Made by a program: the position numbers and the translations under genes. 64,000 nt of DNA from Panorpa germanica (lineage: Eukaryota; Arthropoda; Insecta; Mecoptera; Panorpidae). The stretch is from positions 1,137,001 to 1,201,000 of the forward strand of contig OY783220.1 in assembly GCA_963678705.1 (NCBI GenBank). Reading direction: 5' to 3'. Shown piece after piece: positions 7,681-46,807 of this stretch. The notes below the pieces were generated by a model that did no database searches, was not told where the DNA came from, and saw only the letters and a program-made list of their open reading frames with translations. The stretch's first letter is position 1. Each line of letters begins with the position of its first letter.

Positions 7681-7698
7681 TGGTGTCAGGTGGGGTCT
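7681..7698 (+). promoter_or_regulatory. primer binding site (tRNA-Leu-like)
   Basis: TGGTGTCAGGTGGGG begins one base after the 5' LTR. Its complement ends TGACACCA, as in the 3' ends of insect tRNA-Leu. Priming by tRNA-Leu is inferred from this match only. Confidence 0.65.
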
Positions 7699-11496: not shown

Positions 11497-11508
11497 AGGG
11501 TTGAAGGG
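11497..11508 (+). promoter_or_regulatory. polypurine tract
   Basis: AGGGTTGAAGGG directly precedes the 3' LTR, in the position expected for the plus-strand primer of an LTR retrotransposon. Confidence 0.6.
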
Positions 11509-12329: not shown

Positions 12330-12493
12330 ATATCTTTGCTCCTATTGGTCGTAGCGTGATGTTATATAGCCTATAGCCTTCCTCGATAACTGGACTATCC
12401 AACACAAAAAGAATTAGTCAATTCGAACCAGTAGTTTCGGAGATTAGCGCGTTCAAACAAACAAACTCTGTCGCTTTATAATATTAGTATAGA
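12330..12493 (-). mobile_element. Helitron 5' terminus (unit 1, right piece)
   Basis: Read on the minus strand from 12493, this starts TCTATACTAATATTATAAAG, the same 5' end as the Helitron at 55300, with an A before it and T after it on the host side. It was joined to 6442-6859 before the LTR element split it. The first host-side base lies in the transposase remnant to the right. Confidence 0.85.
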
Positions 12494-12499
12494 TTTACA

Positions 12500-12979: not shown

Positions 12980-13129
12980 AGGTTAATCTTAATTTGATAT
13001 TGGGATTTGTCTGGTCTCATTAGGTGCGGTTTTTCATTGCTCCAGCTATGTAGGTTATGAAGATTTAAATAACCATCTTCCTTGCAGGTTGTTTCATCCG
13101 ACTATAGAATTTTACCTAAGAATTGGGGA

Positions 13130-13223
13130 TCTTCCCTGACCCGTCCGAAAAAAAAAATCTTCTTTAAGGCGAAGTTATGCCTGTATTAATGCCGGTGGGA
13201 AACAATTTGAACATTTACTGTAA
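13130..13223 (+). pseudogene. second transposase C-terminus, inverted
   Basis: The plus-strand frame RRSYACINAGGKQFEHLL followed by TAA (near 13165-13222) is a diverged duplicate of the minus-strand end RRCRACIYAGGKHFEHLL. The two 3' coding ends face outward in one element, a sign of an inverted insertion or fold-back rearrangement. Confidence 0.7.
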
Positions 13224-14513: not shown

Positions 14514-14714
14514 GCGAGTTAATGGGCTCATTAAGAGCCTGGAATCGCTATAGCCTCTTCGGGTGGAGGAAGAGTAAGTCCTGCCCTGTGCAGCTTTCTC
14601 TGTCGCTTCGCGACACACTCGCACCCGTTCGATCACTGGGGTTAAGCATCACAGCGGGCAGTCACAGTTTGGACGGGTGGTTAGTGCTGACCATCATCCG
14701 TCCAAACTGTGGCT
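14514..14714 (+). repeat. GC-rich module A with 5S-like fragment and hairpin (unit 2)
   Basis: This is an exact positional copy of 2887-3087. Module A spans 14514-14627, the 5S-like stretch 14629-14682 and the hairpin 14658-14714. I see no base differences in the 5S-like part. Confidence 0.6.
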
Positions 14715-15000
14715 GCGGTGACCGTAGTCGTGGTTCGGTGCCGTCGTGCACACGTCATTTGAACCGCGGAGACGGGGGTATGCGTATGGGGTTTTCGTTG
14801 ACATTGCACTTCCCTAGCCAATGGTGCGCAGTGTTCGGTGTCACCGCGTCATACTACCGGTAGTATTATTACTACCATTCCAGGCGAACACATTTCAGTG
14901 ATTTAATATCTAATAGGGGTATCTCCCCTTATCCAAGGTACCTGACTTCCTATAACCGCCCGTGTTACACATGCAGACGTAATTTCTGTGCCATATTTGC

Positions 15001-15153
15001 GCGAGTTATGGCCTCATAAGAGGCTGGTATCGCAAAGCTCCAGGAGTGGAGGAAGATTTTATCTTAACCAAATCATACTATACCCAGTGTAGTATATTAC
15101 TCGCACCCGTGCTAATAACGCGAAGGTCGCGGGTTCGATCCCCTCATGGGCCA
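15001..15153 (+). pseudogene. GC-rich module B plus tRNA-Ile 3' half (unit 2)
   Basis: This is a copy of 3374-3526. Module B is followed by the 46-base tRNA-Ile (AAT) 3' half at 15108-15153. It is truncated in the same way as the first copy. Confidence 0.75.
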
Positions 15154-18068
15154 ATTTTTATAAATTCTTTTAAAATAACTTAAAAATTGGTTTAATTAAA
15201 GCAGTCGGAAAGAGAAGAGGATATTCTGCATTCTGTGGATTTTATTCTAAAAGAAATTAGATGGGGATTAGAGAAATCATAGGCCTAGGATAGGATAGTC
15301 AAAGTTCAAGTAAATTTTTAAAGCGAAAAGAAATTGAAAATGAATTTTCATATTTTTATATTTTATATTATTTGATATGTAAAATATTTGATACGAGCCG
15401 CTGTACCATAATTAAAGTCACTTGACGAGTTGTGAAATATTGGATTGGTGTAAAATAGTCCTTCATTTTAGAAATCTGAAATTTGGATTCAGTCATGGGC
15501 GAGTTAACATGGAACGACCTACATATGTTTCATGTCACATTCTCATAAATTATATATTTTAAAACTCTCAAGTCAATAATTACTTAAAATATCAAATAAC
15601 AAGTGTTCCGTTCCTTAAATAAATAGAACAAATATCTTACTCTATCATAAAAGTCATAAATTATGTATTTTAAAACTCTCAAGTCAGAAACATGACCTTT
15701 GTAACCTATGTAGTAGAATCCCACACAAATTCTAAGGAATCACTTGACAATTGACTAAGGGTTCTGCCCTTGGGTTGATATACAACATTAGTATATATAT
15801 AGTTCGTAAAGATATAATGAGTTCACTTACACTGATACTTTCTCAAAGGATCTCTATAGAAATACCTCAACCGTAGTACGTGTTTCTTTGATTCAGTAAT
15901 GGTCAATTTCTATCGCAGATTATTGACATTACCTTAATTTTAATTTTAAAATACAAAAGTATAAATTACAAAAGAAAGAAATCAAAATTAAATAAAATAT
16001 ATAATAAAATATAAATAAATAAACTTAAATAATTGTTTTATTTACGTCGATTACGACATATGAATTAATAAGTAAATTAACCACCAAATATAAATTTGTT
16101 AATTACTTTCGGCTCCCAGAAAGTATACATTAACTGGCGCATTGAGGCGGGGGCCCTATAACGTAGATTGGTAGATGTTTTCAATCGGTCCATGGAGGAT
16201 TGTTGTTTTTGTAATGATTCTATTCTTCTAACGTCTTCACAATAAACAAGATGGAAAAATGGGTCTTTTTGTTCGTGTGTTCTTTTTTGTTAGACTTAAC
16301 CGCATTGTATGTTAGATGGATCGCAAGGAAAATTATATCAAGGTGAAAGGAGATTGGCGGCTTATCAAAGTACTTTCAGTAAAACGAGCTTTTCAATATA
16401 TGCAGCTATTTGATGATTTAGAAAACGATTAAGTCTATTGAAAAGTAAGAATAATATCGTCTAAGGGTGGGAAAGTTATGAGAAAAACTATGAGCTCAAT
16501 AAATACTTAAAAAAGTTATTTGATTTTAAATAACACTATATTATTTAATAAGAAAGGAATGTATATGATATTGTATAAATTAGAAGAATTAGTGTTAGCC
16601 TGTTTTCTTAGTTGCGTTCTTTATTATTCTCACATGGAATGAGGTAACACCACCTAAATACAAGGCTTAACAGAGTTTTGTCGAAAATACTGTAACTTCA
16701 CGCGTTGTTGCCCATACCACTAAAAATACGGAGGGGCGCTTTTAGGGGCTTTATATTTTTAGGAACTTTTTGATTTACAAGTATAGGCCATGGGATAATG
16801 CCAATCTAGACAATCATGTTCATTTGTTGGCTTAGTGACTAGTACAATTAGTCCTCCTAATTAAAAACACAGAGTAATTAAAAAATCGCATTTATTTTTA
16901 TATTTAAATTGTTTATTTGATTTGTTATTATTTATAATTAGTTATCATTAAGATATCATTATTAAAAACTTTAAAACTCTTATTTGTTTATAAAGTGACC
17001 TTTCATTTTCAAATAGAGTAAGTATAATTGCTTTACAATAACATAATTTTGAGGTTATAAAATTTATTTATTATCAATATAATTAATACGTCTTTTATTT
17101 TATGTTTTAGAATGCGATGCAGGGATAAATGAAATCAACAATCATTTATAGGAGACTTCAAACAACAATACTGAGATAGGTGCAAATGACAGATGCCATA
17201 ATTTTGTTGTGTCTTAAGAGCAGGGGGCCCTCACTTAAAATAAATTCCTCGACATGAAAAAAACCGCTTACTTGATGCTCTATATCTTCTATGAACTAAA
17301 CTTGAAAGTACGGATGCGGATGCGCCAAGTATTGCAACAGTAGCGACAATTTCTGTTGACGGAAAAAATGGCAGCCGCTCATATGAAATATTTAGAGAAC
17401 AGAGACTACCACTGTTGACCCGAAGAACGCATTTTTTCTTTGAGTATGTTGAGTAACATGTTTCTTTTATTTATAATTTTATGTTTAGTAAACAAAATAA
17501 ACGATTTTCTTAACAATATTATTTATTTCACAGATGTATTGATATAACATTGTTGGTATTTTTGTATTAAAATGTTGTTGTATAGAATGAAAAGATTAAA
17601 AATTGTTACTTTAATAAATTAAGGTTGTTTTTATTTTTATTTTAGTTTCACAATTATTTTATGTACCATAATATGGAAAGAGCCAATGCATGTAATTTCA
17701 TATTTACACTTACTATTATTTTGTATGGTGGCTCGAAGACCAATCCGTCAAATTGTTAAAACATTTGCTGTATCGTAGAGAAAATAATTAATGAAATTAA
17801 TAAATAATTAATAAATAACTAAGACTTTTGGCGTTCTCGAATTTTCTTTTGAATTTTCTGAAAACCCGTAAATTTGGAAAACTAAAAAAAAATTTTTGCT
17901 CCCCAAATTTTTTCTATCCCCCTTTTTTAATTTTTAATTTAAGAAAAATGTCTGCATTAAACTCCGTCATAATACACATGTTTAAACTTAAACAATATTT
18001 AAACTTTCAAATTAGGACGAATTAAAAGTTATAAAGGAAAAAGTGATTATTTTTTTTATTTTACAAAA
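15154..18068. other. AT-rich non-coding part of unit 2
   Basis: Duplicate of 3527-6441; no gene or RNA is recognisable in it. Confidence 0.5.
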
Positions 18069-18646
18069 TAATTATATCGCATAAACAAATTAGCGCTGCA
18101 TTCAACCGTTCAGTAGGGAGCCGACCGCGCGAGTGACCCGCGCGGCATGGTATCTCGTTGAGCTACACCCCCCTCCCGGCTTGCCCGCAAGCACCGCCTC
18201 TCTACCGCCGCGCCGGCCAGCGCAGAGAGCGAGTTGGTTTTGTTTGGGAGTTATTTATCATTGTAATCTTTAAAGTTTTTTGTTGAAATACCATAAAAAC
18301 GGTTTTTGTGAGTTAATCTTAAAAGATAGACATATACTATCGCGGACTGTTTTTTAGATCATTAAAAGAGCTATTATTCTTTAATACATATTTTTTGTGT
18401 ATCTTGAACCGTTTTCACGGCGCACGCAACGGAAGGCTTCAAAGATGAAATAATTTCTCCCGTTTTTTACACATTTACCACTATATCTTTGCTCCTATTG
18501 GTCGTAGCGTGATGTTATATAGCCTATAGCCTTCCTCGATAACTGGACTATCCAACACAAAAAGAATTAGTCAATTCGAACCAGTAGTTTCGGAGATTAG
18601 CGCGTTCAAACAAACAAACTCTGTCGCTTTATAATATTAATATAGA
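18069..18646 (-). mobile_element. Helitron 5' part (unit 2, uninterrupted)
   Basis: On the minus strand this starts TCTATATTAATATTATAAAG at 18646 and matches the Helitron at 55300-55880. It has the same left breakpoint as unit 1 and no recognisable 3' end. It contains the intact CTATAT at 18481-18486 that marks the LTR insertion site of unit 1. Confidence 0.85.
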
Positions 18647-18652
18647 TTTACA

Positions 18653-19132
18653 TTATAGTAAATGTTCAAAATGTTTGCCACCAGCATAAATACAGGCACG
18701 ACATCGCCTTAAAAGAAACCTTTTTATTCGTCGAGCATATCGTTTACCTTTCATATGATGTGCAACCTGAGTATTTTTTTGTCGAAGCTCGTCCAATGTT
18801 GCTACGGGTTTTGAATAAACTCTTTCTTTAAGACAACCCCAATAGAAGAAGTCCAGGGGGTTTAGATCGGGTGAATGGGGTGGCCATAAAATAGGACCAA
18901 GTCGTCCAATCCAACGCCCTGGATACTCTTCGTTTAAGTATTCTCACACAGGACGAGCATAGTGAGCTGGGCAACCATCATTTTGCAACCAAATGTTTTG
19001 TAAATCACTTATGGGCACGTTTTTTAATAATTCTGACAAGTCATTTTGTAAAAAGTTCAAATAATTATTGCCATCTAATTTCCTTGTACCTAAAAGGGCC
19101 CAAGCATTTTTCCATTTAATATGTTCGTCCAT
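18653..19132 (-). pseudogene. mariner-like transposase, C-terminal half (unit 2)
   Basis: Duplicate of 12500-12979 with the same internal TGA, so the mutation predates the duplication. The surrounding element runs 18647-19927, with the terminal motif at 19914-19927 and the inverted second C-terminus near 19283-19376. Confidence 0.8.
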
Positions 19133-20239
19133 AGGTTAATCTTAATTTGATATTGGGATTTGTCTGGTCTCATTAGGTGCGGTTTTTCATTGCTCCAGCT
19201 ATGTAGGTTATGAAGATTTAAATAACCATCTTCCTTGCAGGTTGTTTCATCCGACTATAGAATTTTACCTAAGAATTGGGGATCTTCCCTGACCCGTCCG
19301 AAAAAAAAAATCTTCTTTAAGGCGAAGTTATGCCTGTATTAATGCCGGTGGGAAACAATTTGAACATTTACTGTAATGTAAATAATGCAATAAATTTATA
19401 AAATGAATGAAAAATTGTTTGTACCATTTGTTTTAATTCATTCAACTATAAAAAACCTCTTTTGGGTATTGTAAAAATGATAACTATCAACAACAACAAT
19501 TTATGAAATATGGTTCTTTTTTAGAAATAGTATGCATAATTTTTTTTTATTGCTAGTTTTCCTGGAGTATTATACCATTTTGGAATCCTGAAGAGTTGCG
19601 CCAATTTTTAAAAAAAACTTGCCATAGTAGTGTTCATACTTTTTTTTTACACCACGATGAGTTAAAGTTGACTGAAACTAAAAATCTTTAAAAATTTTAG
19701 GGAAAAAAATAATTTCGATTGATTGTTGTGTAAAAACTACTAGCTTTCTTGGAGTTTTAATGATTGGGATGGATAGCAGTGCTGTTAAGGTTGCCGATGC
19801 AAAAAAAAAATCAGAAATATTTGAAAAATTGTGGTCATGGTAGTTAAAAACATCTTAAGGTGTTTCAATTTTCGAAAAAAAAATATTTTTTTATACGGCT
19901 TATCGTTGAATTTTGGGACACCCTGTATATTTACGCGATTCGTATGGTGTCTTTAAGACATCTTTATGAAAATTATCTATTTCGTAGATAAAAAAAATTT
20001 CTAAATTTGATAAACTTATTTACGAATCGGAAAAAAAAATACAGAATTTTGTAAAAAAGTTGGTCAAAAGACGCATGAATTGAAAATATTTTTTATTTTG
20101 TTAAAAAGAATATATTTTTTTAGTCAGTTTATATGAAAAATTAATTGTTTTTATATGTAAAATTTATATAGAACGAGTTAAATATTTCAATTTAAAAATA
20201 GAATATAAATTTGATATGAAATTAAAGCCACACACAAAA

Positions 20240-20391: not shown

Positions 20392-20528
20392 GTTTTTTCG
20401 TGGAATAAACATCCTTTCCGCGCATTTAAAAATAAATGTATTTAAAAATTATTTAAATAATTTATATTATTTAAATAAATTATCATAAATTAATAAATAG
20501 GTGTAAGAATTTGATTTGATTAAAAAAA

Positions 20529-21563
20529 ATGGAAAATAATAATAGGAAAAACACCTTAAGTGTAGACTTCATCGAAGTGATTTATAGAATGACGTTTACC
20601 GAATTACACTTATTTTTAAAAAACGATTTAAAATTATCAGTGGAAGATGTGATGGCAATTCAAGTGAATGGAAACAAGATGATGAAAATTGCAGAACATT
20701 TATTAATTGATAACATTATTGAAATGACAAATGGGAAAATAATTTACAAAGGTACGGATGACAATAATTATAATGTGTATATAGAAAGAGCCGATAAATT
20801 CACAATTGTAAGAATGCACAATATAGAATATGAAATTCAAGATATAACGATACAACACGCACTAAAAGGATATGGTACAGTTATTAGCATCAAAAAAGAA
20901 ACTTGGGGTAGAGATATGCCTTTCCCAGTTTATAACGGAACAAGATCAATAAAGATGATTTTAAAGAAAGAAATCCCATCGTACATACCAATGATTGGCA
21001 GAAAGGTTTGGGTTAGCTATGCTACCCAAAAGAAAACTTGTACGTTTTGTGATAGAGAAGACCATTTAGGACAAGATTGCCCTACTAAAATTAGCAACAG
21101 AATAAATTCAAATGGTTTCGCACGCAGCTATGCAGCCATTGCGGGGAATACAATGAATGACAAAGCGGTAACTGATTGTGTTGTTCCAACTGAATCAAAA
21201 AATGAAGAATTAAGTTTTGTCAATAATTCAATTTTTCCACCCTTAATGCCAAAGAATACGCAAAATGAAACAAAAATCATTTCAACAGCTATTAATGATG
21301 ATACTATTGCGATTGTAAATAATAATGATAATTTGTCCAAAATTCCTACAGCACACAAAGAAATTAAGAGAAAAATTGTAGAATCATCGTCAAATGAAGA
21401 TACTTTGGCAAATTCTGAAATTGTAGATTGCTCAGATAATTCCGCTGCATCCAAAATGGATATAGGATTGGAAAAAAAAGATAAGAAAAATAACAAAAGA
21501 CCAAAGAAACAAAAAAAAGTGACAGGAAAAGCAATGGATATAAAAGATAAAACAATTGAATAA
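20529..21563 (+). CDS. LINE ORF1 protein (L1/Tx1-like element)
   Basis: This 344-residue frame lies 27 bases before the endonuclease frame of the same LINE. Around residue 170 it has a CCHC knuckle (CTFCDREDHLGQDC), the nucleic-acid-binding motif of LINE ORF1 proteins. The last ~60 residues are very lysine-rich (KKDKKNNKRPKKQKK). The start at 20529 is the first ATG and follows an A-rich run. The protein would bind the element RNA. The frame is open, although ORF2 downstream is broken. Confidence 0.85.
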   Translation: MENNNRKNTLSVDFIEVIYRMTFTELHLFLKNDLKLSVEDVMAIQVNGNKMMKIAEHLLIDNIIEMTNGKIIYKGTDDNNYNVYIERADKFTIVRMHNIEYEIQDITIQHALKGYGTVISIKKETWGRDMPFPVYNGTRSIKMILKKEIPSYIPMIGRKVWVSYATQKKTCTFCDREDHLGQDCPTKISNRINSNGFARSYAAIAGNTMNDKAVTDCVVPTESKNEELSFVNNSIFPPLMPKNTQNETKIISTAINDDTIAIVNNNDNLSKIPTAHKEIKRKIVESSSNEDTLANSEIVDCSDNSAASKMDIGLEKKDKKNNKRPKKQKKVTGKAMDIKDKTIE

Positions 21564-21590
21564 CCTTAATTTATTTAATATCTTATTAAT

Positions 21591-24500
21591 ATGGTACTAA
21601 GAACATTTGCAACATTTAATATCAATGGATTATCCTCTGTAACATCTAAAATTATGCTGAAACAATTTATTATAGACCACGATTTGGACATAATTTTATT
21701 ACAAGAAGTTAATATAGAAAATTTAAGTTTCTTCAAACCTTATTCCTATATCTCGAACATTGGCATAAATAATAGAGGAACTGCAATTTTGTTGAGGCCT
21801 GGAATAGAAGCTACAGATTGCATATGTGAAGAAGATGGACGTATCCTATCGATAACTGTTGAAGGTCATAGATTAGTAAATATATATAATTTTTCTGGAT
21901 CCAAATATAGACAACAACGCATAAAGCTTGCTAATGAAACTATTGTCAAACATATTAACTTTAGACTACCTCTAATAATTGCTGGCGATTTTAACTGTGT
22001 GCTGAACCAGAGAGACCAACTTGGGAATCTAAACTTCTGTTCTGGATTAAATAGGTTAGTAACTGAACGAATTCTATCTGATATTTGGATCCTCAAGAAT
22101 AAAACTCAACAGGGCTTCACTTACTTTAGGGGAATGAACATAGCATCAAGAATTGATAGAGTTTATGTTTCTGAAGATCTCAAACCATCTATCCACAAAT
22201 GCTTAGTTATATCCAATGCAATATCTGATCATCTAGCATTGGTATGGAAAATGAAAACTGATAAAAGATTACCTATATTTGGCCGCGGTTATTGGAAATT
22301 GAATGCGAAACTAATTATAAGTGAACCCAAAGATCCTATTAACGTTATAATACAAACTTTAAAAAAACGAGCCTCCTTTCAAGACCGCACCAAATGGTGG
22401 ATAAATATATTCAAACCCAAAATACTACAATATTACAAACATTGTACGATACAGAAGGCTAAGGAACGAAATACTACTTTAAATTTCTATGAAACGGTAC
22501 TAAAGGAATTGTACGAAAATCCAGCGATGTACAATGACTTTGACATACAATCAAGAGAATGTAAAAACAAAATAAGGCAAATACATGAAGAGAGAATAAA
22601 CGACCGCCTCAAATCATCCTTTGGTTCCGTTATGGAGGAAGAAAGAAAATCCATATATCAAGTAGATAAAGAAAGAGAAAGCTAGACATATAATAAAAAT
22701 AAAAAATGATAATGATAATTGGATTCTCAACTCCATAGAAATTAGACATGAATTTTTATGTAAATATCAACAGATATTTCATGATAAAGCAATTTCCGAA
22801 TCCGACCTTCATAAGATGTTGAGTAATAATACCACCTATATATCAACAGCACAAGCAGATATATTAAATGAGAAAATCAGCAAAAATGAAATAAAAACTG
22901 CAATTGATCGAATACAAAAAGGAAAATCTCCGGGACCTGATGGTTTACCATATGAGTTTTACCAAATCTTCTGGGATGAAATAGGGGACGTCTTAGAGTC
23001 TATCTTTAATGATCTGTATGTCGGTAAAATGGATAAAGAACACATAAGATCCCTAACCACTGGTGTTATAACTTTCATTCCAAAAACCTCTAAGCCTATA
23101 AAAGTGAATGACTTCCGCCCTATAAATTTATTAAATACTGATTTTAAGTTATTTATGAAAGTCATATCAAATAGGATCAGACCACTTTTAGGAGATATAA
23201 TAGACTTTGGACAAACATGTGCAGTAGAAGGGAAATCTATTATAGAAAACTTATCTATGATTAGAAATATTATTTTAGATAGTAGTTGTCGATCAAGTAA
23301 AACCGGTGCAATTGCATCAATTGATATGAATAAGGCTTTTGATAGCATATCTCACCCTTATCTATGGACTGTAATGAAATCATTTAAATTTCCTGATCAG
23401 TTATTGCCATGCCTCAAAAATATTTACTAAAATTCCGCTTCGAAATTAATTATAAACGGTCATTTAACTAATGAGATTCAAATGCAAAAATCAGTTCGCC
23501 AAGGATGCCCTTTATCTATGTTACTATTTGTCATTGGAATAGAACCTGTCATTAGATTAATTGCTAAAAAAATGAAAGGAATTCAAATTACAGGTGGAAG
23601 ATTTAAATGTATGGCCTATGCAGATGACATCACTGTCGGCATATCTGATAGGAACGATCTTCAAGCATTAAAATAAATACTTGATTACTTTACAAAGGTT
23701 TCTAATATAAAAATCAACCTCGAAAAATCAATTATGATGTCTCTTGAAACAACAAATGCTAATAATTCAATATTAAAAAATGAAGATTCCGTTAAAATTT
23801 TAGGTGTTATTTTTGAAAAATCACTAAATGAAACCATTACTAGCAACTGGACAAAAATATGTAATAATATTAAACACTTAATGGAACGATTCAAATCTAG
23901 AAACCTTGATTTAATACAGAAAGTATGGATTATTAACACCTTTATTTTAGCAAAAGTGTGGTATTTAAGTCAAATTCTCCCAATGCCACTTAAATTTAGT
24001 CAACAATTGGAAGTCCACATTGGTAAATTTTTATGGTATGGACACATCTATAGAGTTAAGAGGGACCAACTATACTTACAAAAAGATGACGGAGGCTTAG
24101 GCTTGATTTCTACTAAATTAAAAGCTAAAGCATTATTGAAGAAAAATCTATTGAAAAGCATTTCAGGGCGATTTAACAAAATTGAACAGCAATTTGTTTT
24201 GAACCTCATAAATCATATGAACGACTTCAAAATTTCAAAGGAATTAAGAAATACTTTACAAGGAATTAACTTAAATGACCGGACAGATGATAAATTTATT
24301 AAGAACTCATCTGCTATTTACAAAGATGAACTATCAGCTTTGCAAATAAGCTCTTATATTGTTAAAAAATATCCTGCTAGAAAACACTCTCAAATATGGA
24401 AAAATATACATCATAAATTTTTGAATTCTAAATGGAGATCTTGTTTATATCGCTTCACCAACGAAGTTTATGCCACAGGAGATAAAAGATCAAGACATAA

Positions 24501-24846
24501 TATAGCGGATAATAACTTATGTGAGAAATGCTCAAATGTGGATACGCTCGACCATCGTATTTATTCGTGTGTGAAGTCAAGATTAATTTGGGAAAAGACA
24601 CTTAATAATTTGCGCCTGAAGTTACAACTACCGAGGAGTATCACCACCGCTATAAATATCCTTGAAATGGTACCGACAAGCAAATGTGACCCCGTGCACT
24701 TTGCTAAAATATGGCTGACAGCTGCAGCCATATATGAAGCACTTCACGGGGAAGACAAATTTGAATCCTTTTTAAGGTCAGAAAGACATAAAATGTTTAC
24801 TACATCAAATATAACATATGAATCTAAAAAATTAATTAGATTTTAA
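21591..24846 (+). pseudogene. LINE ORF2: AP endonuclease, reverse transcriptase, zinc end (broken)
   Basis: The endonuclease domain (21591-22280) shows FNINGLSS, LLQEV, AGDFN and the SDH end motif. The reverse transcriptase follows with GKSPGPDGLPYEFY, then DFRPINLLN, SVRQGCPLSMLLF and the active site YADD (about 23617). A C-terminal CEKCSNVDTLDHRIYSC zinc-type motif lies near 24520-24570. Three breaks are visible: one frameshift near 22680 (the RT continues in another frame) and in-frame TAA stops at 23428-23430 and 23674-23676. The RT wording is closest to L1/Tx1-like elements; I am less sure of the clade than of the type. Confidence 0.85.
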
Positions 24847-25031
24847 AAGATTAAAACAATTAGAAAAACAGGTAAACACATAAAACAAAATATTAAATTT
24901 CATGAAATAAATATTTTTGGAGAAATATATATTGCCCTCACTGTAGAATACTCCTACTATAAAATGTTTTACTAAGATCCTTGTTTTGTAGTTGTAATAT
25001 TAAGAAATAAATGAATATCAATAAAAAAAAA

Positions 25032-25608
25032 ATGTCTTTTGTGTGTGAGTTGATAATTTTTACATATAAAAACAAATAATTTTTCATATAAATCGACTAA
25101 AAAATATATAATTTTTCTACAAAATATAAAATATTTTTAATTTATTCGTTATTTAACTTTAACTTTTTTTTTAAATTTAGAAATTTTTTTTCAATTTGTA
25201 AAGCCTATATAAAAAATTTCAACTTTCTAGCACAATTTTTATCCTCGGCAAAAACCGCCCACGTGCCTCCAAATAAATTTTTTAATTTTGAATTTTTTTT
25301 TTAATATTATATTCAATTATTACAGAATCCAAAATGTGACCTTTCTCTAAAGTTTCTTACGGGGCACTTTAATTTTCTCAGGGCTCCTTTTATAAAATTT
25401 TGAAATTCTAAGTTTTAAAATATATTCGCATTCAATAGCGTAACACACATACAAAATATCACCTTTCTATCTTTTTCGAATACAAAATTATGGAGGAAAA
25501 AGGGCCCACATTTCAAGGAAATTCAGCGAAAAAAAATTTTATCTATGAAATAGGAAATTTTACGTTATGTATTTTACCAACAATTAATTTTATTCCATTT
25601 TGTTTTAG
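25032..25608. other. AT-rich upstream or intron region
   Basis: No coding frame is present. The first ~120 bases are an inverted relative of 20073-20250. Later parts (CATTCAATAGCGTAACACACAT-like at about 25430) recur, diverged, at 26100-26125. The stretch ends in a splice acceptor TTTGTTTTAG (25599-25608). Confidence 0.5.
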
Positions 25609-25674
25609 CTAGAAACGACAATGTCTGACTTGAATAACAACTTTTTAAGTGAATCTGAAAACACTTTTCCGCCG
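25609..25674 (+). CDS. repeat-protein gene, candidate first coding exon
   Basis: A good acceptor (TTTTGTTTTAG) precedes CTAGAAACGACA and an ATG at 25621. The 18 codons MSDLNNNFLSESENTFPP end at a GTAACT donor (25675). The acidic, signal-free start would suit a membrane protein with a cytosolic N-terminus. It leaves phase 0, which does not join cleanly to the next candidate exon, so an exon may be missing or the junction may differ. Confidence 0.4.
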
Positions 25675-25748
25675 GTAACTACTTTGATAAGACTTAAAAA
25701 GTACATTAATTTTATAAGAAGCAATCTGTATATTTTATTATTTTACAG

Positions 25749-25874
25749 AATCTCAATGATTATGATCCATAGGAGAGAGAACAAGTGATGATCATGAGAA
25801 GAAGATAACACGTGATGATCACGAGGAGAAGATAACACGTGATCGAACTACAACTGAGTGTACATGCGAATTAT
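25749..25874 (+). CDS. repeat-protein gene, candidate exon A (duplicated cassette)
   Basis: This exon is bounded by TTTTATTATTTTACAG and the donor in GAATTAT/GTAAGTATAAG. In the frame required by exon B it reads an acidic, internally repeated stretch (HEKKITRD, then HEEKITRD) and ends TTTECTCEL. The frame is closed by a stop in its first few codons, so its 5' limit is uncertain. It is a diverged duplicate of exon B, whose end reads TTTEFASEL at an identical donor. Confidence 0.4.
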
Positions 25875-26334
25875 GTAAGTATAAGAGTGAATATAAATTA
25901 ACTATCGTTTAACCCCATCGCAAGCAACGACTGTCTTTTGTGTGTGCATTTAATTTAATTTCAAATTTCAATTTCATTTTTATATTCATAACAACAAATA
26001 ATTTTTCATATACACTGACTAAAAGCACACTTTTTAGGGCTTATTAATTTTTTCTATTTTGTAATAAAATATTTAATTTCTAAATTTTGAAATATGTTTA
26101 CATTCAATAGTGTAATACATATGCACAATTTTACCTTTTCATCTTTTTAAGGAAAAATCCAAGTAAAATTCTGTACTAAACATAGCCAGGGAGATTATAA
26201 TATCTCACGTGTACTCTTTATTTTAAGTATGTTTATGCTTTTTCAGTAGCAATAACTTTCGTAAGTTGATGCACTAAAAAAGAAACATTAAAAGAAAAAT
26301 AGGATGTACAATTAACATTAAACTTTTATCTCAG

Positions 26335-26562
26335 ATCCAAATAAACCGAGTATCAAATATTTGATTGAAATTGGTTTGAACATTTCTGAAATGGAAAATT
26401 CGCATAGTTGTAATCTATGTGGTAACTTTTTCTTAAGAAATGATTACTCTCTTCAAGAACCTACTTCGGTTTCTAATGATGATGACCAAAATAAAGAAGA
26501 ATTCGCAAATAAAGAAGAGCGCGATGAAAATCTAACTACTACCGAGTTTGCATCCGAATTAT
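26335..26562 (+). CDS. repeat-protein gene, exon B
   Basis: The exon lies between CTTTTATCTCAG and GTAAGTATAAG. It starts with two bases of a split codon and leaves one base, so it joins exon C in frame (T+GT = Cys). It encodes about 75 residues: a small CNLC pair (SHSCNLCGNFF), then a very acidic stretch (DDDQNKEEF...NKEERDEN). No known domain is recognised. The split phase at its start also fits exon A (T+AT = Tyr). Confidence 0.6.
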
Positions 26563-26637
26563 GTAAGTATAAGAATAAAAGAATGAATATAAATAAATGT
26601 GTATTATTTAACAACTAACATTAAAATCTTATCTTAG

Positions 26638-29600
26638 GTAGAAGCAAAACGAATATCACAGATTTGGAGAAAACTTGTTCGTACGATTTCGTCAGAAATA
26701 AAGGCGCAAATATAGAAGAAAAGGAACGCACTTCAAAAAAGAATAAAAGCAGTTTCATTACCATTAGAAGATGTATCTTCTTAGCATGTTGCTGTGGTAT
26801 AATATTCTGGATTCTGTATTATGTATTGCCTAAGATTTACGAGTTCGCAAAATGCCTTTTAGGTGTTTTAATCCTCCTTGGAATTGCTAAGGGTATTTTT
26901 AGTAAGCCTACTCATGATGGTGACACGTGGGATCAAAAGAATTTGACAAAACCTATATTTCCCAAGTTTACTGAGTCAACAGAACAGCTAGATCAAGAAA
27001 TAACACACATGGGGAATTCTATTAACATTATGGCATATAATTATAATAATGGAATATCAGGAGTGGATAGGCCTATTGCTCCTAAATATATTGGAAAAAC
27101 AACAGTGGACGTTAATGGAATAACGTACACATTGGATTCTATTAAATCTATGGCATCTAATTATAATAATGGAATATCAGAAGTGAATAGGCCTATTGCT
27201 CCTAAATATATTGGAAAAGCAACAGTGGACGTTAATCGAATAACGTACACATTGGATTCTATTAAATCTATGGCATCTAATTATAATAATGGAATATCAG
27301 AAGTGAATAGGCCTATTGCTCCTAAATATATTGGAAAAGCAACAGTGGACGTTAATCGAATAACGTACACATTGGATTCTATTAAATCTATGGCATCTAA
27401 TTATAATAATGGAATATCAGAAGTGAATAGGCCTATTGCTCCTAAATATATTGGAAAAGCAACAGTGGACGTTAATCGAATAACGTACACATTGGATTCT
27501 ATTAAATCTATGGCATCTAATTATAATAATGGAATATCAGAAGTGAATAGGCCTATTGCTCCTAAATATATTGGAAAAGCAACAGTGGACGTTAATCGAA
27601 TAACGTACACATTGGATTCTATTAAATCTATGGCATCTAATTATAATAATGGAATATCAGAAGTGAATAGGCCTATTGCTCCTAAATATATTGGAAAAGC
27701 AACAGTGGACGTTAATCGAATAACGTACACATTGGATTCTATTAAATCTATGGCATCTAATTATAATAATGGAATATCAGAAGTGAATAGGCCTATTGCT
27801 CCTAAATATATTGGAAAAGCAACAGTGGTCGTTAATCGAATAACGTACACATTGGATTCTATTAAATCTATGGCATCTAATTATAATAATGGAATATCAG
27901 AAGTGAATAGGCCTATTGCTCCTAAATATATTGGAAAAGCAACAGTGGACGTTAATCGAATAACGTACACATTGGATTCTATTAAATCTATGGCATCTAA
28001 TTATAATAATGGAATATCAGAAGTGAATAGGCCTATTGCTCCTAAATATATTGGAAAAGCAACAGTGGACGTTAATCGAATAACGTACACATTGGATTCT
28101 ATTAAATCTATGGCATCTAATTATAATAATGGAATATCAGAAGTGAATAGGCCTATTGCTCCTAAATATATTGGAAAAGCAACAGTGGACGTTAATCGAA
28201 TAACGTACACATTGGATTCTATTAAATCTATGGCATCTAATTATAATAATGGAATATCAGAAGTGAATAGGCCTATTGCTCCTAAATATATTGGAAAAGC
28301 AACAGTGGACGTTAATCGAATAACGTACACATTGGATTCTATTAAATCTATGGCATCTAATTATAATAATGGAATATCAGAAGTGAATAGGCCTATTGCT
28401 CCTAAATATATTGGAAAAGCAACAGTGGACGTTAATCGAATAACGTACACATTGGATTCTATTAAATCTATGGCATCTAATTATAATAATGGAATATCAG
28501 AAGTGAATAGGCCTATTGCTCCTAAATATATTGGAAAAGCAACAGTGGACGTTAATCGAATAACGTACACATTGGATTCTATTAAATCTATGGCATCTAA
28601 TTATAATAATGGAATATCAGAAGTGAATAGGCCTATTGCTCCTAAATATATTGGAAAAGCAACAGTGGACGTTAATCGAATAACGTACACATTGGATTCT
28701 ATTAAATCTATGGCATCTAATTATAATAATGGAATATCAGAAGTGAATAGGCCTATTGCTCCTAAATATATTGGAAAAGCAACAGTGGACGTTAATCGAA
28801 TAACGTACACATTGGATTCTATTAAATCTATGGCATCTAATTATAATAATGGAATATCAGAAGTGAATAGGCCTATTGCTCCTAAATATATTGGAAAAGC
28901 AACAGTGGACGTTAATCGAATAACGTACACATTGGATTCTATTAAATCTATGGCATCTAATTATAATAATGGAATATCAGAAGTGAATAGACCTATTGCT
29001 CCTAAATATATTGGAAAAGCAACAGTGGACGTTAATCGAATAACGTACACATTGGATTCTATTAAATCTATGGCATCTAATTATAATAATGGAATATCAG
29101 AAGTGAATAGGCCTATTGCTCCTAAATATATTGGAAAAGCAACAGTGGACGTTAATTGAATAACGTACACATTGGATTCTATTAAATCTATGGCATCTAA
29201 TTATAATAATGGAATATCAGAAGTGAATAGGCCTATTGCTCCTAAATATATTGGAAAAGCAACAGTGGACGTTAATCGAATAACGTACACATTGGATTCT
29301 ATTAAATCTATGGCATCTAATTATAATAATGGAATATCAGAAGTGAATAGGCCTATTGCTCCTAAATATATTGGAAAAGCAACAGTGGACGTTAATCGAA
29401 TAACGTACACATTGGATTCTATTAAATCTATGGCATCTAATTATAATAATGGAATATCAGAAGTGAATAGGCCTATTGCTCCTAAATATATTGGAAAAGC
29501 AACAGTGGTCGTTAATCGAATACCGTACACATTGGATTCTAATAAATCTATGGCATCTAATTATAATAATGGAATATCAGAAGTGAATAGGCCTATTGCT

Positions 29601-30475
29601 CCTAAATATATTGGAAAAACAACAGTGGACGTTAATGGAATAACGTACACATTGGATTCTATTAAATCTATGGCATCTAATTATAATAATGGAATATCAG
29701 AAGTGAATAGGCCTATTGCTCCTAAATATATTGGAAAAGCAACAGTGGACGTTAATCGAATAACGTACACATTGGATTCTATTAAATCTATGGCATCTAA
29801 TTATAATAATGGAATATCAGAAGTGAATAGGCCTATTGCTCCTAAATATATTGGAAAAGCAACAGTGGACGTTAATCGAATAACGTACACATTGGATTCT
29901 ATTAAATCTATGGCATCTAATTATAATAATGGAATATCAAGAGTGGATAGGCCTATTGCTCCTAAATATATTGGAAAAGCAACAGTGGACGTTAATCGAA
30001 TAACGTACACATTGGATTCTATTAAATCTATGGCATCTAATTATAATAATGGAATATCAGAAGTGAATAGGCCTATTGCTCCTAAATATATTGGAAAAGC
30101 AACAGTGGTCGTTAATCGAATAACGTACACATTGGATTCTATTAAATCTATGGCATCTAATTATAATAATGGAATATCAAGAGTGGATAGGCCTCTATTG
30201 CTCGCAATTCTATTAAAATAACAATGGACGTTAATGGAATAAGGCACACATGGAATTCTATTCTACCCACGACACCTAATTATAATTCTAAAATAGGGGA
30301 GCATGATGGTCAAACAAAATCAAATTACAAGTTACCAAATCCTCACCAATACAACGTCATCCTTCTAGAGAATAATGGAATGTTATATATTACTTTCATT
30401 CAAAATACTATGACGCAAAAGATAATGCTCCTAGTTACTGAAATATTGATGACCAATATGATCAACATCAAGTAA
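26638..30475 (+). CDS. tandem-repeat membrane protein, main exon (interrupted as read)
   Basis: The acceptor is ATCTTAG before 26638, and the frame joins exon B. The protein has a lysine-rich stretch, then a Cys-rich hydrophobic segment (FLACCCGIIFWILYYVL, plus LLGVLILLGIA; about 26770-26900) that should span the membrane. A short linker follows, then about 27 copies of a 40-residue repeat with core SEVNRPIAPKYIGKATVDV and TLDSIKSMASNYNNGI. After the repeats a non-repeat end (GIRHTWNSIL...NMINIK, stop at 30473-30475) is reached only by a change of frame in the last, altered unit (about 30195-30220). There is also one TGA (29157-29159) where every other unit has CGA. Function unknown. It is either a decaying gene or a real gene with assembly errors in the repeats. 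Confidence 0.6.
27011..30230 (+). repeat. 120-bp coding tandem array (~27 units)
   Basis: The period is exactly 120 bp, so the frame is kept. Most units from 27121 to 29460 are identical to the base. Variants are few: GAC to GTC (Asp to Val) at about 27829, 29509 and 30109; a Thr/Gly version (KTTVDVNG) in the first unit and again at about 29620; and RVDRP units near 29940 and 30180. Such uniformity implies recent expansion or continuing unequal exchange. Confidence 0.95.
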
Positions 30476-32044
30476 AGAAAGTATAAATCTTTTATGTATA
30501 AAAATAATATATATATATTAATAAGATGTACATTTATAAAATAAACATATTCATTTTCAAAACTAAATTTTTTTATGATGATTAAATGTTGAATGAATTT
30601 TTATTGTTTATTTATTTTAGTGTTCAGTATTTAGTTCAGTGTTTTAAATTTATTAAACGTCGGCCTATTTCCGATTCTGAGTCCTACCACCGACGACCGC
30701 CTTCAATGTTAGCAGTATTTGTGGTGTCGTGGCTTCATATATGTGAACCACCCCAGTAAACAATTTGGTGAAGTGCCCTATTTAGTGACGTTCGAGTCAC
30801 TCGTACAATTCAATTCTAACGCTTTACAAGTTCGAAGCAACAACACAGAAACCAATTTTAGTTCAAATTTATTTTCTACCTGTCAAGATTTTGTGAAATA
30901 AAATCTGATATATGTAGTCTTAGCAAGTTCGATAATAGTTCAAAATTGATACACAAAAGTCGCTTTTAGTTCAAATTGATTCTCTACCTGTCACAGATTT
31001 TGTGTTAGTTTTTATAATTTTTTCATAATAAAATTCTTTCTTTTTCCAACATCATTCATTAAGTAGCAGTTGTTTCTTTCACACTTGGATATATTTTTTT
31101 TTAGTTCCTTTTCATTCCAAAGTGAGAGAGAAACGAGATGCGGTTAGACAAGTAAAATATATTTTTCACCGTTATACTTGTATAGTTCTATAGTATTTAG
31201 TTCAGTACAGTATGTTTAAAGTATATGCTATCCTTTTTCAACAAATATTTCTTTAATGGTAATAGGCACACGCTGTCTCCCTCAATCCCCGAATATAATG
31301 TGTTTAAACGAATACTCTAAACAGCGATGCTAAGACAGATGTTTTAAACCTAACGCAGACCTGCCGATCGTGGATTTTTGAATCACCAAAACAATGTAAA
31401 AAACTAATATAACGAGTATTGTTGAAGATGAATAATATTCATTAAAAAAATCACGATCCGTACTAAAGATTACATCTATTTATTTCTTCATTTAAATATT
31501 TATATTTTGCAGACTCTAAAAAGTAGAATTCCATTAAGTTTTATACCCCTGCCATCCCTGACGAAGAAAACAGGCTTTCAACTAGTGTCAACTTTATAAC
31601 TCCGGTCATAAATCATAAACTGGACTCGCTTTTAATTCAGCAGTGAGCCGTCGTTGCGATGTCTGTAGCTCATAAAACGGGCCTTTCCTATGAACGACTG
31701 AATAGAAAACGAACGCGTTCCAGACAAAAAACTCATGATAAGTAATAGAAATGAAGTAGAATTGACTCTAAAATGTTTACTGGGTAAGCAAATATTTTAC
31801 TTTAATAAAAATATCAGGTAGTCTGTGATTCACTCTTAAATAACTAATAAATTTTAAATCCCTAGTTTGGCTAAATCCACTATTCTAAAGAGTTTTACAA
31901 AATTGAAATATTGCTAAAATATTTTATTATAGTATAAGCCAGGTGAATTTTTGTTGGCAAGTACCAAATAGTTTATGTGTGTACTTCCAAAATTTGAAAT
32001 TACTACTTATAATAATTTAATAAATTGTCATAATAATAACATTA
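30476..32044. other. AT-rich intergenic region
   Basis: There is no supported gene. A fragment of the SINE 3' part lies at 30648-30771, and a pair of similar ~35-bp stretches (TTTTAGTTCAAATT...CTACCTGTCA) lies at about 30857 and 30971. Confidence 0.5.
30648..30771 (-). mobile_element. SINE 3' fragment
   Basis: The plus-strand text CGTCGGCCTATTTCCGAT then CTGAGTCCTA..CACCGACGACC and TGTGGTGTCGTGGC matches 32066-32160 of the SINE below with scattered changes. Its tRNA-like head is missing. Confidence 0.7.
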
Positions 32045-38060: not shown

Positions 38061-38091
38061 TACAAATATTAGTTAACAAACATAATAAATA

Positions 38092-41000
38092 ATGTATAAA
38101 AATACTTGTATAATGCAATGGAACTGCCGCAGTTTAAAATCCAAATTGATAAATCTAAAACAAATAGTTTTTGAAAATAATATTGAAGTAATCGCGCTCT
38201 CGGAAACCTGGCTTGATCCATCTTATAAAATCAAATGGAGAAATATGGAACTAGTAAGAGCAGATAGAAATAACAACGGTGGAGGCGTTGCTCTAGTAAT
38301 AAACCACAACATTTTTATTGACAAAATTTTAATTCCTCTCTCAGGGGATATTGAAATTATAGGAGCAAAAATTAAATGGGGTAATGAGCATATTAATGTT
38401 GTATCTCTTTATGCCCCAGCAACAGCATCTATTACTACAGGAATATTGAATGCAATATTAAGATCTATTCCAGAACCAAGGCTAATTCTAGGTGACTGGA
38501 ATGCTAAAGCCATTGCTTGGGGAAACACCTATGACTGTCCAAGGGGTAAAATTATATGTCAGGTGATGGACAATAACAATATGATGTTCCTTAATGATGG
38601 TTCTCCTACTCGAATCAACATCCATTCAGGAACAGCGTCAGCAATTGATTTATCATGGGCAACCCCATCTCTTGGTAGCCAACTTTCATGGAACGTAATG
38701 GAGAATCAACTAGGTTCTGATCACGCCATTATACTTATGAATGGGGCACAAATTGGTCAATCAAGCAGAGGCAAGGAAAGATTTAAATTAAACATTGTAC
38801 CAAATACAATCGACTGGGACAATTTCTCTAACCAAATAGAAGCAGACTTATTGGCAAACCAAATTCAGTCCAATACTACGCTGGAAAAAAAGTATAATTA
38901 CCTCATTGACTCAATTGAGTCTGCAGCTAAAAAGTGGGGGAAAAATATTGCAAACAATAAAATCTCAAAATATCCGCCAAATCCTTGGTGGGATGATGAA
39001 TGCAAAGAGGCTGTGCAAAACAGAAAAAGAGCCTACAGAAGATACCACCGAAATAGTTCTGAAACAAATAAAGTAGCCTTAAAAAAAGTAGAATCTGAAA
39101 CGACCAACTTACTAAAGTTCAAGAAAAGACAAGCTTGGAGAAACCTTGCCGAAGAGTTAAACCATAATTTAACTACTAAACAATTATGGGAAAAAATTAA
39201 TAGGATGAGAGGTTCAGGAAAATGCACGAAAACAATTTCACCTAACAGTGAGGACTTGTTATGTGAACTTTCACAAGTAATAGCATCGCCCTGGGTACCT
39301 GAGCAAGAAAGCGTACTATATGGAGTCACTCAAGACGACTCTAGCAAAATGATGATTAAAGAAGTAGAAATGTGGGAAGTACAATCTCACCTTATAATAA
39401 CGAAAACAACCACGCCCGGTCCAGATGGAATATCTTATGAAATGTTAGGCCATCTCCCATCAATCGCTAAAAAGTTATTATTAAACATATACAACACAAT
39501 TTTGGAAGAAGAACTAATTCCTGAGTCCTGGAAAAATACTCAGATTGTTCCAATATTAAAAATAGATAAGCCAGTAAATCAACCAACCTCATATAGACCT
39601 ATAACTCTCATTAATTGCTGCAGAAAAGTCTTTGAGAAAATATTGAAAACGAGATTAGAATATTGGTTAGATTCTAAGTCGTTAATACTAAAGCAAATTT
39701 TAGGCTGTAGAAGAGGTAGAAGTACCAGGGATGGCATAGTTGCATTATCAGCTAGAGTTGAAGCAGGAAAAAGCAAAGGCAATGTATCAATGGCCTGTTT
39801 TGTAGATATCAAAGCAGCTTTCGATAATGTAAACATCAATTTTTTATTAAGGCAATTATATGTAATAGGAGTACCGAGAGTAATAATTAATATACTAAGG
39901 AATTTACTAAGTGGCAGGAAAACTCAACTATGGTTTAATGGATTACTATCGGACTGGAGACTATGTTCTAAAGGCATTCCACAAGGCTCAGCACTAAGTC
40001 CTCTTCTCTTTAATATGATGGTTAGGTCAATAAAACCGTATCTCAACCCAACAATATCATGGATATCATATGTGGATGACTTAGTTTTCTTATCACAAGA
40101 AAATACTATAGAGGAGACTGGAAAAAAAATGCAAAAGATTGTAAATAACTTAGAGAAATGGCTTAATGATGCTTGTTTAGAAGCATCAACAGAAAAATCT
40201 AAACTAATGATTTTTAACATGAGTTCAAAAATATCACAGCCACCTATAATAACTCTAGGTAAACAAAAATTGGAATACACAAATAATTATATATACTTAG
40301 GATTTCCATTTTCCACAAATAAATCCGAAAAATCAATAATACTCAATATTAAAAAGAAAGCTGAACCTGCAATCAATATACTCAAAATGTTTGCTGGACA
40401 AAGATGGGGACTAAATACATCTTCGCTACTAAATTTATATAAATCATTAGTCCGCCCTCATTTGGAGTATGGTGCAGAGGTACTAATAATGTGTAAAAAC
40501 AATACAATAGAATCACTTGAAAAATTGCAATATAAAGCTTTAAGAATAGTATTAGGAGCTATATGTACAACTCATACCCTTTCATTACTAGCAGAGGCTT
40601 GTATGCCACCATTAAAAGAAAGATGGATAAAGAAAACGTCTTACCAATAGAAAGAAATACCAATTTTCGAATTAGATTATTATTACTCAGGTAGAGGATC
40701 TCCTGCAAATATAACTATTGGCAAGGAGCTAAATATGAGTAACATATTACCTGAGCTAATAACTATAGACTTACAACAAAAATTAGATCTACAATTCCCG
40801 AATTATACAAAATTATATACTGACGGCTCAAAAGAAGCAGATGGAGTGGGTGCAGCAGTAGTAGATATTAACAATAGCAGAATTTACAAGCTTCATAATC
40901 AAGCATCCATATATACAGCTGAGTTATGTGCTATAGATCTAGCTGTGGATCAAATCATTACTGATGATAGAGACAGCACTTTAATATTATCCGACTCGTT

Positions 41001-41658
41001 ATCAGTCATACAGTCCTTAAGCAGTAAGGGAATCAATACAAAATTAGACAACAAAATTTATTATGTCAAAGAAAAAATAAATAGGGAAATAGATAAGGGC
41101 CGAAATATTAAACTAATTTGGATACCGTCACATAAGGGAATTAAGGGAAATGAAAAAGCTGATCAAATGGCCAAGGTAGCTACTTCCTGTGATAAATATA
41201 TTTCATTTTTTATAAAATCAGACATGAAAGCAGAATTAGAAAAAAATGAAATGAAAAATTGGCAAGATAAGTGGGATAATTCTGATAAAGGTAGAGAATT
41301 TTATACAATACAACCAACACTGAGACGTAAGCCATGGTTTGCCAAACTAAAATGGCCAAGAAGATTAATTACAATGACCTCAAGGCTAAGAATGAATCAT
41401 ACTGGAGCTCCGAAACATCTAGCAAGAAACAAAATCATTCCAAACTCTAAATGCGAATGTGGTGAAGAAGAGGCAGACCCTGACCACATTCTGTAGCAAT
41501 GTAAAAATACATCAATGGCAAGAAATGGACTCCAAAGGGCGGTATTACAGACTTCGCAGACGCTTCCTGTTAACACCGCTTTTTTGATTGAGAAACCGAG
41601 ATTTATAACTGCAGTAGCCATGAATCGATCATTCTTGTTATCTGGGTATAATATATAA
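38092..41658 (+). pseudogene. I-type LINE ORF2: endonuclease, RT, RNase H (two stops)
   Basis: The N-terminal AP endonuclease shows MQWNCRSLKSK, ALSETWL, LGDWNAK and GSDHAI. The RT follows with TPGPDGISYEML, YRPITLINC, DIKAAFDNV, IPQGSALSPLLFN and the active site YVDD (about 40070). RNase H has YTDGSKE, TAELCAI, LSDSLSV and HKGIKGNEKAD. The C-terminal CECGEEEADPDH motif is near 41453. Two in-frame TAG stops, at 40648-40650 and 41494-41496, break an otherwise single frame, so the element is only slightly decayed. Confidence 0.9.
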
Positions 41659-43983: not shown

Positions 43984-45548
43984 CTGAAACAAAGACAAGC
44001 ATGTGAGTGGAAAATTCTTTGGTTCGATTTAAAAGAAACGGCAGACACAAATACAAATAATAATTTAAATAAACGGCTAATCTATTAAGGGACAGATGCC
44101 TGAATCTTTGCCAAAAACTGCCACATCAAATTTTTTTAATTTTAATTTCTTTTCATTAATTAGATACTTAAATACTACATAATACAGAGTTTCAAAATCC
44201 TTCAAAGTGTACTACCGGCCGCCATAGCCATAAAAATAATAGAGGGTTTGTCGAGAGGGGACAAGAAAGGCGAGAGGTGAGACATGGAGGTACACGCAAG
44301 AAGGAAGAAGAAGCAGGAAACGGTGAAAAGAAAGGAGGTGTATGGAACATGTAGAGAGAGAAGGTTAAGAGAAGAAAAAGCAGAAAGTACTTTTAGATGT
44401 ATAAAAAGCTAGAATAGTTTAAGTTTAATTTTAAGTTGAAGTTATATGAAATGTATTAAGAAATAAGATAATGTAGATTGTAAAACTGAAAGGCACACAA
44501 TTAATATTTAATATAATATAATACTACTGACCACCTTTTTTTAATTTCTGAATAGGAAAACTTAGGGTTTTTTCTACTACAAAATAAACAATTTGCAAAA
44601 CCTTTTACTGAACCTTTTTCAACAAACCATACAAAATTCAATATCAAATAGATATACAAATAATTATATAAATGTGGGAAATAATTTAAGATTAAATATA
44701 GTTAGTTTTTAAGAAATAATTATTATAAAGAACTCTGTAAATTAGGTTAAGAACTTTGCTAATATTAAGATATATTTGAATGTTCCTAGCGCTGCTTTGA
44801 AACAATTTGTGGACCCCTGAGCCGTTCAGTTAACAGTTCACTAACAAAGAACAGGTCACCAAGCGTTCGCTAAGCATTATATGCTGACGGCACATGTTTG
44901 CGCGGCAAATGATTGATAATGGTAGATATACACAGTGTGTATGGCGTCATTTGTAAATTCAGGAAATGTTATGTTAACTAGTTGTTAATATCATTGAGAA
45001 TTGTAATCAGTTTAACTATATTGCTAGGTGTAATATTTGTTATTGTCATAGGCGTAAATAGTAGAGTTTTTGCAAACTAGTATAGTGTTAATTACTAGGT
45101 TGTTTTTTATCATTATAAACCATTGTGATTGTAAAACTATGTACTATTTATACTACGCATTACTTTGTGATATGCAAACATTGTAAGAAGGTCTTCCAAC
45201 CTAAGCATTGTATATAATTAAGTGTTATTATTATTGTGAACTCTTTTTAATTTATTAACTTGTAATGTAATTGTTTTTGTGAAATAATTAAATGAACTAC
45301 TATTATTCAAAAAGTTCTGTGTTAACTTATCCTTAATAAACTATATTGTAAATGGGGGGCTCAACTCAGGATTTATATAACATCAAAACTGCTAAAAAAC
45401 CCCAGCTGGAAATCTAACTAACACCCACTAAGGTGTAAGATAGACCCACATAAATATACACCATAAATGAAAGTATAAAAAATTGAAATAGTAAGTTTCA
45501 ATTTAATAAACCATTAATATACTACGAAACCCCTTAAACATTATTTAC
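43984..45548 (-). other. esterase gene 1, intron 2
   Basis: AT-rich intron of about 1.6 kb with a purine-rich stretch at 44240-44390; nothing else is recognised. Confidence 0.7.
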
Positions 45549-46807
45549 CTGGTTTTCGCAAAGTTAGTCCACATTTTAACCATTCTCTTTAAAGTCAATA
45601 ACTCTCTTGAATTTGTGACATACAAAGAATCATCTTCATGACCATTTCTAAATAAATATCCTAAATCGTCTCCATGTGATGCACCAGGAAAATCAGGTAC
45701 ACCAGAATAAAGTTTTCTAAAATTGAAACTTCCATTAAATGAAAATTGGTAGTAATATATTGGCGGAGGGATAATCTTTTTAGATAAAATATCAACAGTC
45801 TTACTTATCCCATGGAACATCAAACATTCCGTGTCTATTTTAGAATATTTCTGATAAATATTTTTCAACTCAGGATTATCATCTTGTCCTGCATGTTCTC
45901 TAATAACTTGTAACACATCACGAAAACTAGTTCGTGTAAAGTTCATGCTATTGCTCATACATGTGTTGAGATACAGGTCAAAGTTACATGCTTCCATTGC
46001 GACATTGTTGAATATGTTACCCTCGAACGATGTGAAACCAATAACCATGGGCACTTGCCTTATTGAATCCTGTTTTAAAATATTTAGAGGAGTATCGGGT
46101 AGAAAAGTGCCGTCAGCATTTGGGAGAAAACAGTATGGATGTATGCCCAGAAAGCTCTTTGATTTATGACAGTCAAACCGTGATAAGTCCAACGAATCTG
46201 CTTGTTGCAACATTGGTAAGTGAGCTGAACTGCAATTTACGTTGTAAAGGTCGTTACATAGTAAGTTGCTAATTTCGTCACCGTCGTTTGTAAACGCCCA
46301 TGGACATATAGCACTTCCGCTTTGTAGAATAGCTCCATGAAACAACCCTTCACTTAGCGGAGACATCAGATGGTAATGGACAGATGCTGAACCCGCACTC
46401 CACCCAATTAGAGTCACTCTGTCACGATCACCTCCAAATTTATGAATATTCCTTCTAACCCATTTAAGAACTTCTAATTGATCTTTCATTCCAGCGTTTC
46501 CCGATATGTTTAATTCTTTGCTGTTCAAAAATCCAAATATTCCAAGTCTGTAGTTAAAGGAGACCCATATTACGCTTTCATCCATGAAGAAATCTGGTAA
46601 CATTTCATACTCGTGACCTGCTCCAGTGTTGAAACTACCACCATGGATCCAAACCATTACTGGAAGAAGAATTTCATTCGATGTCTCGAGATTTGGTAAA
46701 TATGGCGTTAAGATATTTAAATAAAGGCAATCCTCGTTGCTTTCGCAAGATGGTTTAATAATAGTAACATCTTTTATATCATTCCAGTTATCCACTTCTA
46801 CCGGAGG
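45549..46807 (-). CDS. secreted carboxylesterase (gene 1), main exon
   Basis: This is an alpha/beta-hydrolase of the carboxylesterase type B family, which hydrolyses ester bonds of lipids, hormones or xenobiotics. Together with 49084-49275 and 43827-43983 it makes an intact protein of about 535 residues, the usual length. Visible motifs are EDCLYLN, HGGSF (oxyanion hole), NYRLGIFGFL, the nucleophile in GWSAG (about residue 201), the acid in SFEGN and the catalytic His in GASHGDD. The full triad is present, so it should be active. Splice sites are TTTTTTTTAG (phase 0) and GTAAAT (phase 2). The GWSAG elbow in place of the GQSAG of juvenile hormone esterases argues against that role. The natural substrate is unknown. 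Confidence 0.93.

Follow-up and report, generated by a model that had tools for sequence, protein, structure and literature searches.

Gene structure and lesions of the window copy

The window analyzed here is a 64,000-nucleotide stretch of Panorpa germanica DNA (positions 1137001 to 1201000 of contig C17). Its forward strand holds a gene copy of four exons, the last of which carries an array of 120-bp units. Exon 1 (25621..25674; MSDLNNNFLSESENTFPP) has the donor GTAACT and was found likewise in three sister copies, being fused to exon 2 in a fourth. Exon 2 (25749..25874) contains a 27-bp tandem repeat and measures 126 bp versus 97 bp in three sister copies; the 29 bases extra to sister copies A, B, and C appear by eye to be a 27-bp duplication with 2 further bases. 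A TAG in this exon aligns with AAG in the same three copies and, together with the net 2-bp frameshift, disables it. Exon 3 (26335..26562; 228 bp, phase 1-1) contains Cys and an ATG at 26391, and exon 4 of the spliced model (26638..30475) comprises a linker, hydrophobic segments, the repeat array, and a C-terminal tail that is out of frame here.

The joints at 25674/25749, 25874/26335, and 26562/26638 are all GT/AG, so that the good splice sites noted in the sequence-only reading are present, but no open protein runs across the exons owing to the TAG, the frameshifts, and a TGA. The latter is an in-frame stop in unit 18 of the array (29157..29159), where alignment of the units gives CGA as the consensus. 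The 27th unit (30138..30257), compared in register with the array and the sister copies, is decayed and has a 2-bp insertion near 30194, which shifts the C-terminal tail out of frame; the tail is also 6 bp short. The protein proposed earlier, with no mention of any lesion, was not confirmed, given these changes in exon 2, unit 18, and unit 27. Judged by its stops and frameshifts against open sister copies, the window copy, whose lesions were read in one haplotype, is classed as a probable pseudogene. Because of the lesions at these three places, a full-length 27-repeat protein is unlikely to be produced from this copy, while a truncated product is possible.

Within exon 4, two hydrophobic stretches (26772..26900; CIFLACCCGIIFWILYYVL ... 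FAKCLLGVLILLGIAKGIF) form a predicted membrane hairpin, as indicated by hydropathy and by an AlphaFold2 helix with block pLDDT of 78-86, and are preceded by an RR-containing segment. The Cys-rich membrane segment that had been described ahead of the array was thereby found as a hydrophobic, Cys-containing segment by hydropathy, its membrane location being a prediction.

Properties of the array

Across the window, Tandem Repeats Finder reported a period of 120 bp with 27.1 copies and 98% matches, in agreement with the exact period claimed from the letters alone. The array consists of 26 full coding units in tandem (27018..30137; consensus SIKSMASNYNNGISEVNRPIAPKYIGKATVDVNRITYTLD), 18 of which match the consensus exactly. 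The description of about 27 near-identical 40-residue repeats therefore holds for the 26 full units but not for the 27th, which is decayed and frameshifted. Units 2 to 26 differ pairwise by a mean of 0.78%. Divergence is greatest at the two ends, in units 1 and 27, a pattern that fits an array growing from inside. As far as the sequence goes, the uniformity of the units is that of a recent expansion.

The consensus unit is stop-free in only one of the six frames, and this frame is open in 25 of the 26 full units. Derived point changes were counted in internal units only, leaving out those common to edge units or sister copies, and fell by eye into five kinds: I2N, R18R, D31V (in three units), R34 to stop, and T36P. 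These comprise three missense changes, one nonsense change, and one synonymous change (n = 5), against a neutral expectation of 25% synonymous, 71% missense, and 3.5% stop. The derived changes thus appear to lie near the neutral expectation, with five being too few to prove neutrality or to show selection in either direction.

Sister copies and genomic distribution

The genome searched comprised 464,208,970 bases in 249 contigs. A DNA search with 1001 bases of the array, skipping very common words, gave at least 11 matches, all on C17, of which 5 fell in the array and 6 elsewhere. These correspond to seven places, namely six gene-family loci including that of the window and a short fragment at 9727491. 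A protein search under the same word rule, whose only query was the initial part of exon 4, gave at least 17 matches at E <= 1, again all on C17, with at least 8 outside the window gene. Five loci, counting the window copy, lie within about 0.3 Mb and one lies at 9.70 Mb; the short fragment of the family, near 9.727 Mb on the same contig, was seen in both the DNA and the protein searches. Apart from this fragment, the genome searches, which skipped very common words, detected no dispersed copies of the unit outside the gene family.

All four modeled sisters (A, B, C, and E; locus D and the 9727463 fragment being left out) have stop-free spliced frames at shared splice sites, in keeping with a protein-coding gene family; unit counts were read by eye from the spliced models. 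Sisters A (near 870 kb) and B (near 950 kb) each have four exons, an uninterrupted frame of 363 residues, and one unit before a degenerate tail. Sister C (near 914 kb) has four exons, 415 residues, three units, and another C-terminal end, and sister E (9.70 Mb) has fused exons 1 and 2, four copies of exon 3, 631 residues, and two units. The C-terminal tail is common to three of the four open sisters. In sister E, the 228-bp exon 3 and its 75-bp intron are repeated in 303-bp steps (L027:2549-3760); all four exon copies are open, with 6-17 differences between them. Locus D is split in two, with about 6 kb between the pieces: one extends from intron 1 into the beginning of exon 4, the other contains the remainder of exon 4, and one of them carries a TAG. 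The frames between the pieces resemble, by eye, a retroelement-like endonuclease and a zinc-knuckle protein.

Upstream of sister B (L028:2481-3007), a different 120-bp unit is present in about 5 repeats and occurs once in the window near 25430-25513; that its period equals that of the exon-4 unit is probably due to chance. When the 1.6 kb upstream of exon 1 was scanned for a further coding exon, no ATG-to-donor frame was common to all five copies, and a 26-codon frame of this type was common to B and C only.

Rates of change and exchange among copies

Sisters A and E are separated by about 116 coding substitutions and contain no stop; under simulated neutral change, 3.97 stops arose on average, with P(0) = 0.015. 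The closer pair, A and C (44 changes), had a P(0) of 0.18. These comparisons used one of the four exon-3 copies of E, and C was cut before its divergent end. The dN/dS ratio was 1.11-1.17 in five of six sister pairs, and the sixth (A-B) had no synonymous change; A and B are almost identical and not independent, leaving few independent comparisons. The sister frames are thus open while their amino acids change at a neutral-like rate, a combination that fits either relaxed or diversifying selection, and a dN/dS near 1 would also be compatible with constraint having been lost family-wide.

Exon 3 of the window copy differs from A and B by 0.9-1.3%, whereas the first part of exon 4 differs by 2.9% from C and by 10.9% from A and B, and intron 2 by 6.1-6.6% from A, B, and C. 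This mosaic of similarity across exon 3, exon 4, and intron 2 suggests exchange among the copies.

Searches for relatives and structure models

With pieces of the array as queries, Pfam returned Coat_F at 1.7e-27 and seven more families above the cutoff at 29160-30221. These were rejected as summed partial matches (Coat_F covered 23 of 63 profile positions), a single unit giving 0 matches, although a 40-residue query has little power. The best Pfam match of sister protein A was BRI3BP at E 0.15. tblastn of two units against phages listed 21 weak records, the best at E 0.2, and nothing at E <= 1 was obtained with sister protein A; the viral and prokaryote scans turned up no relative. In PDB sequence searches, the window piece had no match at E <= 1, and the sister profile had matches at E 0.14 and 0.31. 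The best PHROGs match, at E 0.014, involved one of three members only, and Rfam gave 0 matches at the gathering threshold in 24500-31500. The available parts of the literature on parasitoid repeats, on Diptera repeats, and on Panorpa saliva, silk, transcriptome, tandem repeats, or gene families contained nothing on this gene. Once repeat inflation was removed, the earlier statement that the repeat matches no known family was thus upheld in Pfam, PHROGs, PDB, and the phage and viral sets. Relatives may well be known outside the libraries searched, which did not extend to insect proteins or genomes in general.

Single-sequence AlphaFold2 prediction of exon 4 with the first units gave a confident helix at the hydrophobic stretches and little else (mean pLDDT 49). 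Modeling of several units had been proposed as a check. Six units gave a strand-rich, solenoid-like model with a mean pLDDT of 75.2 in the best of five, the others ranging from 62 to 27, and Foldseek with this model found no PDB match at E <= 0.001. The model of the array resembles beta-solenoid repeat proteins (mean pLDDT 75) but differs from them in having no PDB match and in reaching that confidence in only the best of five models. According to the available text of PMC11795689, AlphaFold2 draws beta-solenoids for random perfect repeats. The solenoid-like model of the array was given no weight, being of this known artifact type.

Genomic neighborhood

A carboxylesterase reading frame lies on the minus strand at 45545..46807, and has relatives next to sister loci A and C, two of the five. 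A second such frame (53795-55078, minus strand) has about 80% DNA identity to the first. Because sequence homologous to the window continues into the carboxylesterase gene at A and C, a joint duplication of gene copy and esterase is probable at these two loci; within the stretches fetched, no esterase match was seen at the corresponding place for B, D, or E.

Upstream, about 6.2 kb of the window is duplicated in tandem (2281-20061), the pieces being 99.9 and 99.4% identical. The first copy includes an LTR-type element, gypsy-like by eye (6860-12330), whose insertion would be very recent because its 0.82-kb ends are 99.9% identical, it has an apparent 4-bp target duplication, and it is absent from the second copy. 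Three regions resemble non-LTR retrotransposons: 20520-24846, with an endonuclease match at 21579-22685; 38089-41496, with endonuclease and reverse transcriptase matches at 38089-40650; and 56657-59524, judged by eye from its frame. Elsewhere in the assembly, the mitochondrial genome is contig C249 (16,386 bases, 22.7% GC). Nineteen COX1-like stretches on contigs other than C249, 17 of them above the family cutoff and most with standard-code stops, are probably mitochondrial insertions in the nucleus.

Interpretation

We consider it likely that the window copy is a disabled member of an undescribed, fast-changing family of predicted membrane proteins and that its coding minisatellite expanded recently. 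The family would be small and young, confined to one chromosome, with the window copy as one disabled member. In its open members, a Cys-containing N-terminal part would be followed by the hydrophobic hairpin and then by a C-terminal part that includes one to three 40-residue units. The expansion in the window copy would have turned a single unit into about 26, whether through unequal exchange, slippage, or conversion, and recently so because 18 of the 26 units are identical. With stops and frameshifts in exon 2 and the array, the full-length product would no longer be made. The array is thus a coding minisatellite in a probable pseudogene, with no maintained 27-repeat protein.

Coding minisatellites, or in-frame variable-number tandem repeats, are known from mucin-like and silk-like proteins. 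The array shares with them a unit length that is a multiple of three, near-identical internal units, and diverged edge units, but here the frame of the carrier is broken and the open sisters have one to three units. Tandemly duplicated, fast-changing, lineage-specific gene clusters are likewise a known kind in insects. The present family resembles these in its clustering (five loci within about 0.3 Mb, with a sixth at 9.70 Mb), its dN/dS near 1, and its mosaic similarity; it differs in having no recognizable domain and in that different copies multiply different modules.

One point against a disabled copy is that a reading of 897 residues is intact as the sequence stands, from the ATG at 26391 in exon 3 over the GT/AG joint to the TGA of unit 18 at 29157, so that expression may persist. 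The window copy could then be expressed as a shortened protein displaying 17 whole units and most of unit 18 at the membrane, with repeat number mattering. We regard this as unlikely, since such a protein would lack everything encoded before the ATG in exon 3, exons 1 and 2 included, as well as the C-terminal tail found in three of the four open sisters. A broader reading is also unlikely. In it, an undescribed family of scorpionfly membrane proteins would diversify as different copies multiply different modules (exon 3 fourfold in one, the exon-4 unit 26-fold in another, and the 120-bp upstream unit about fivefold in a third), repeat number would be under selection, and the window copy would work as a truncated array protein.

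A functional, homogenized surface repeat protein, with the lesions put down to assembly errors or to a rare allele, would account for the uniform units, the coding period, and the 25 of 26 full units that are open. Against it stand the several separate lesions and the one to three units of the open sisters. The available text of PMC11464959 reports QV 59.9 and HiFi reads for the P. germanica assembly, and at that quality base errors at every lesion are unlikely; we consider this explanation improbable. A satellite or transposon-borne array unrelated to the gene, for which the surrounding retroelement-like frames and minisatellites might speak, is very improbable because the array sits inside exon 4 and, in a search that skipped very common words, all of the unit matches (at least 11) were confined to a single contig, at the six family loci and one short fragment (9727491).

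The preferred reading accordingly remains a coding minisatellite that expanded recently, in a gene copy that is now disabled. Of what the sequence-only reading had proposed, a coding-type repeat behind a predicted membrane segment was supported, and no sign of a satellite or transposon was seen, the matches in searches that skipped very common words being restricted to the gene family and the fragment on C17. The uniformity had also been taken as a sign of a functional surface, adhesive, or host-interaction protein, a proposal that is not supported, given the broken array copy, the one to three units of the open sisters, and changes near neutral. Nor does the locus seem to represent an undescribed system; it reads as an ordinary runaway repeat within a fast-changing gene family. 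As for the open copies, it is a tentative guess that their product is a membrane protein that evolves fast and serves a task specific to the lineage. The locus would offer a clear case in which a highly uniform coding array seems functional, yet the gene copy bearing it has several disabling changes beside open sisters, and it illustrates that homogeneity alone, and AlphaFold2 models of perfect repeats, can mislead.
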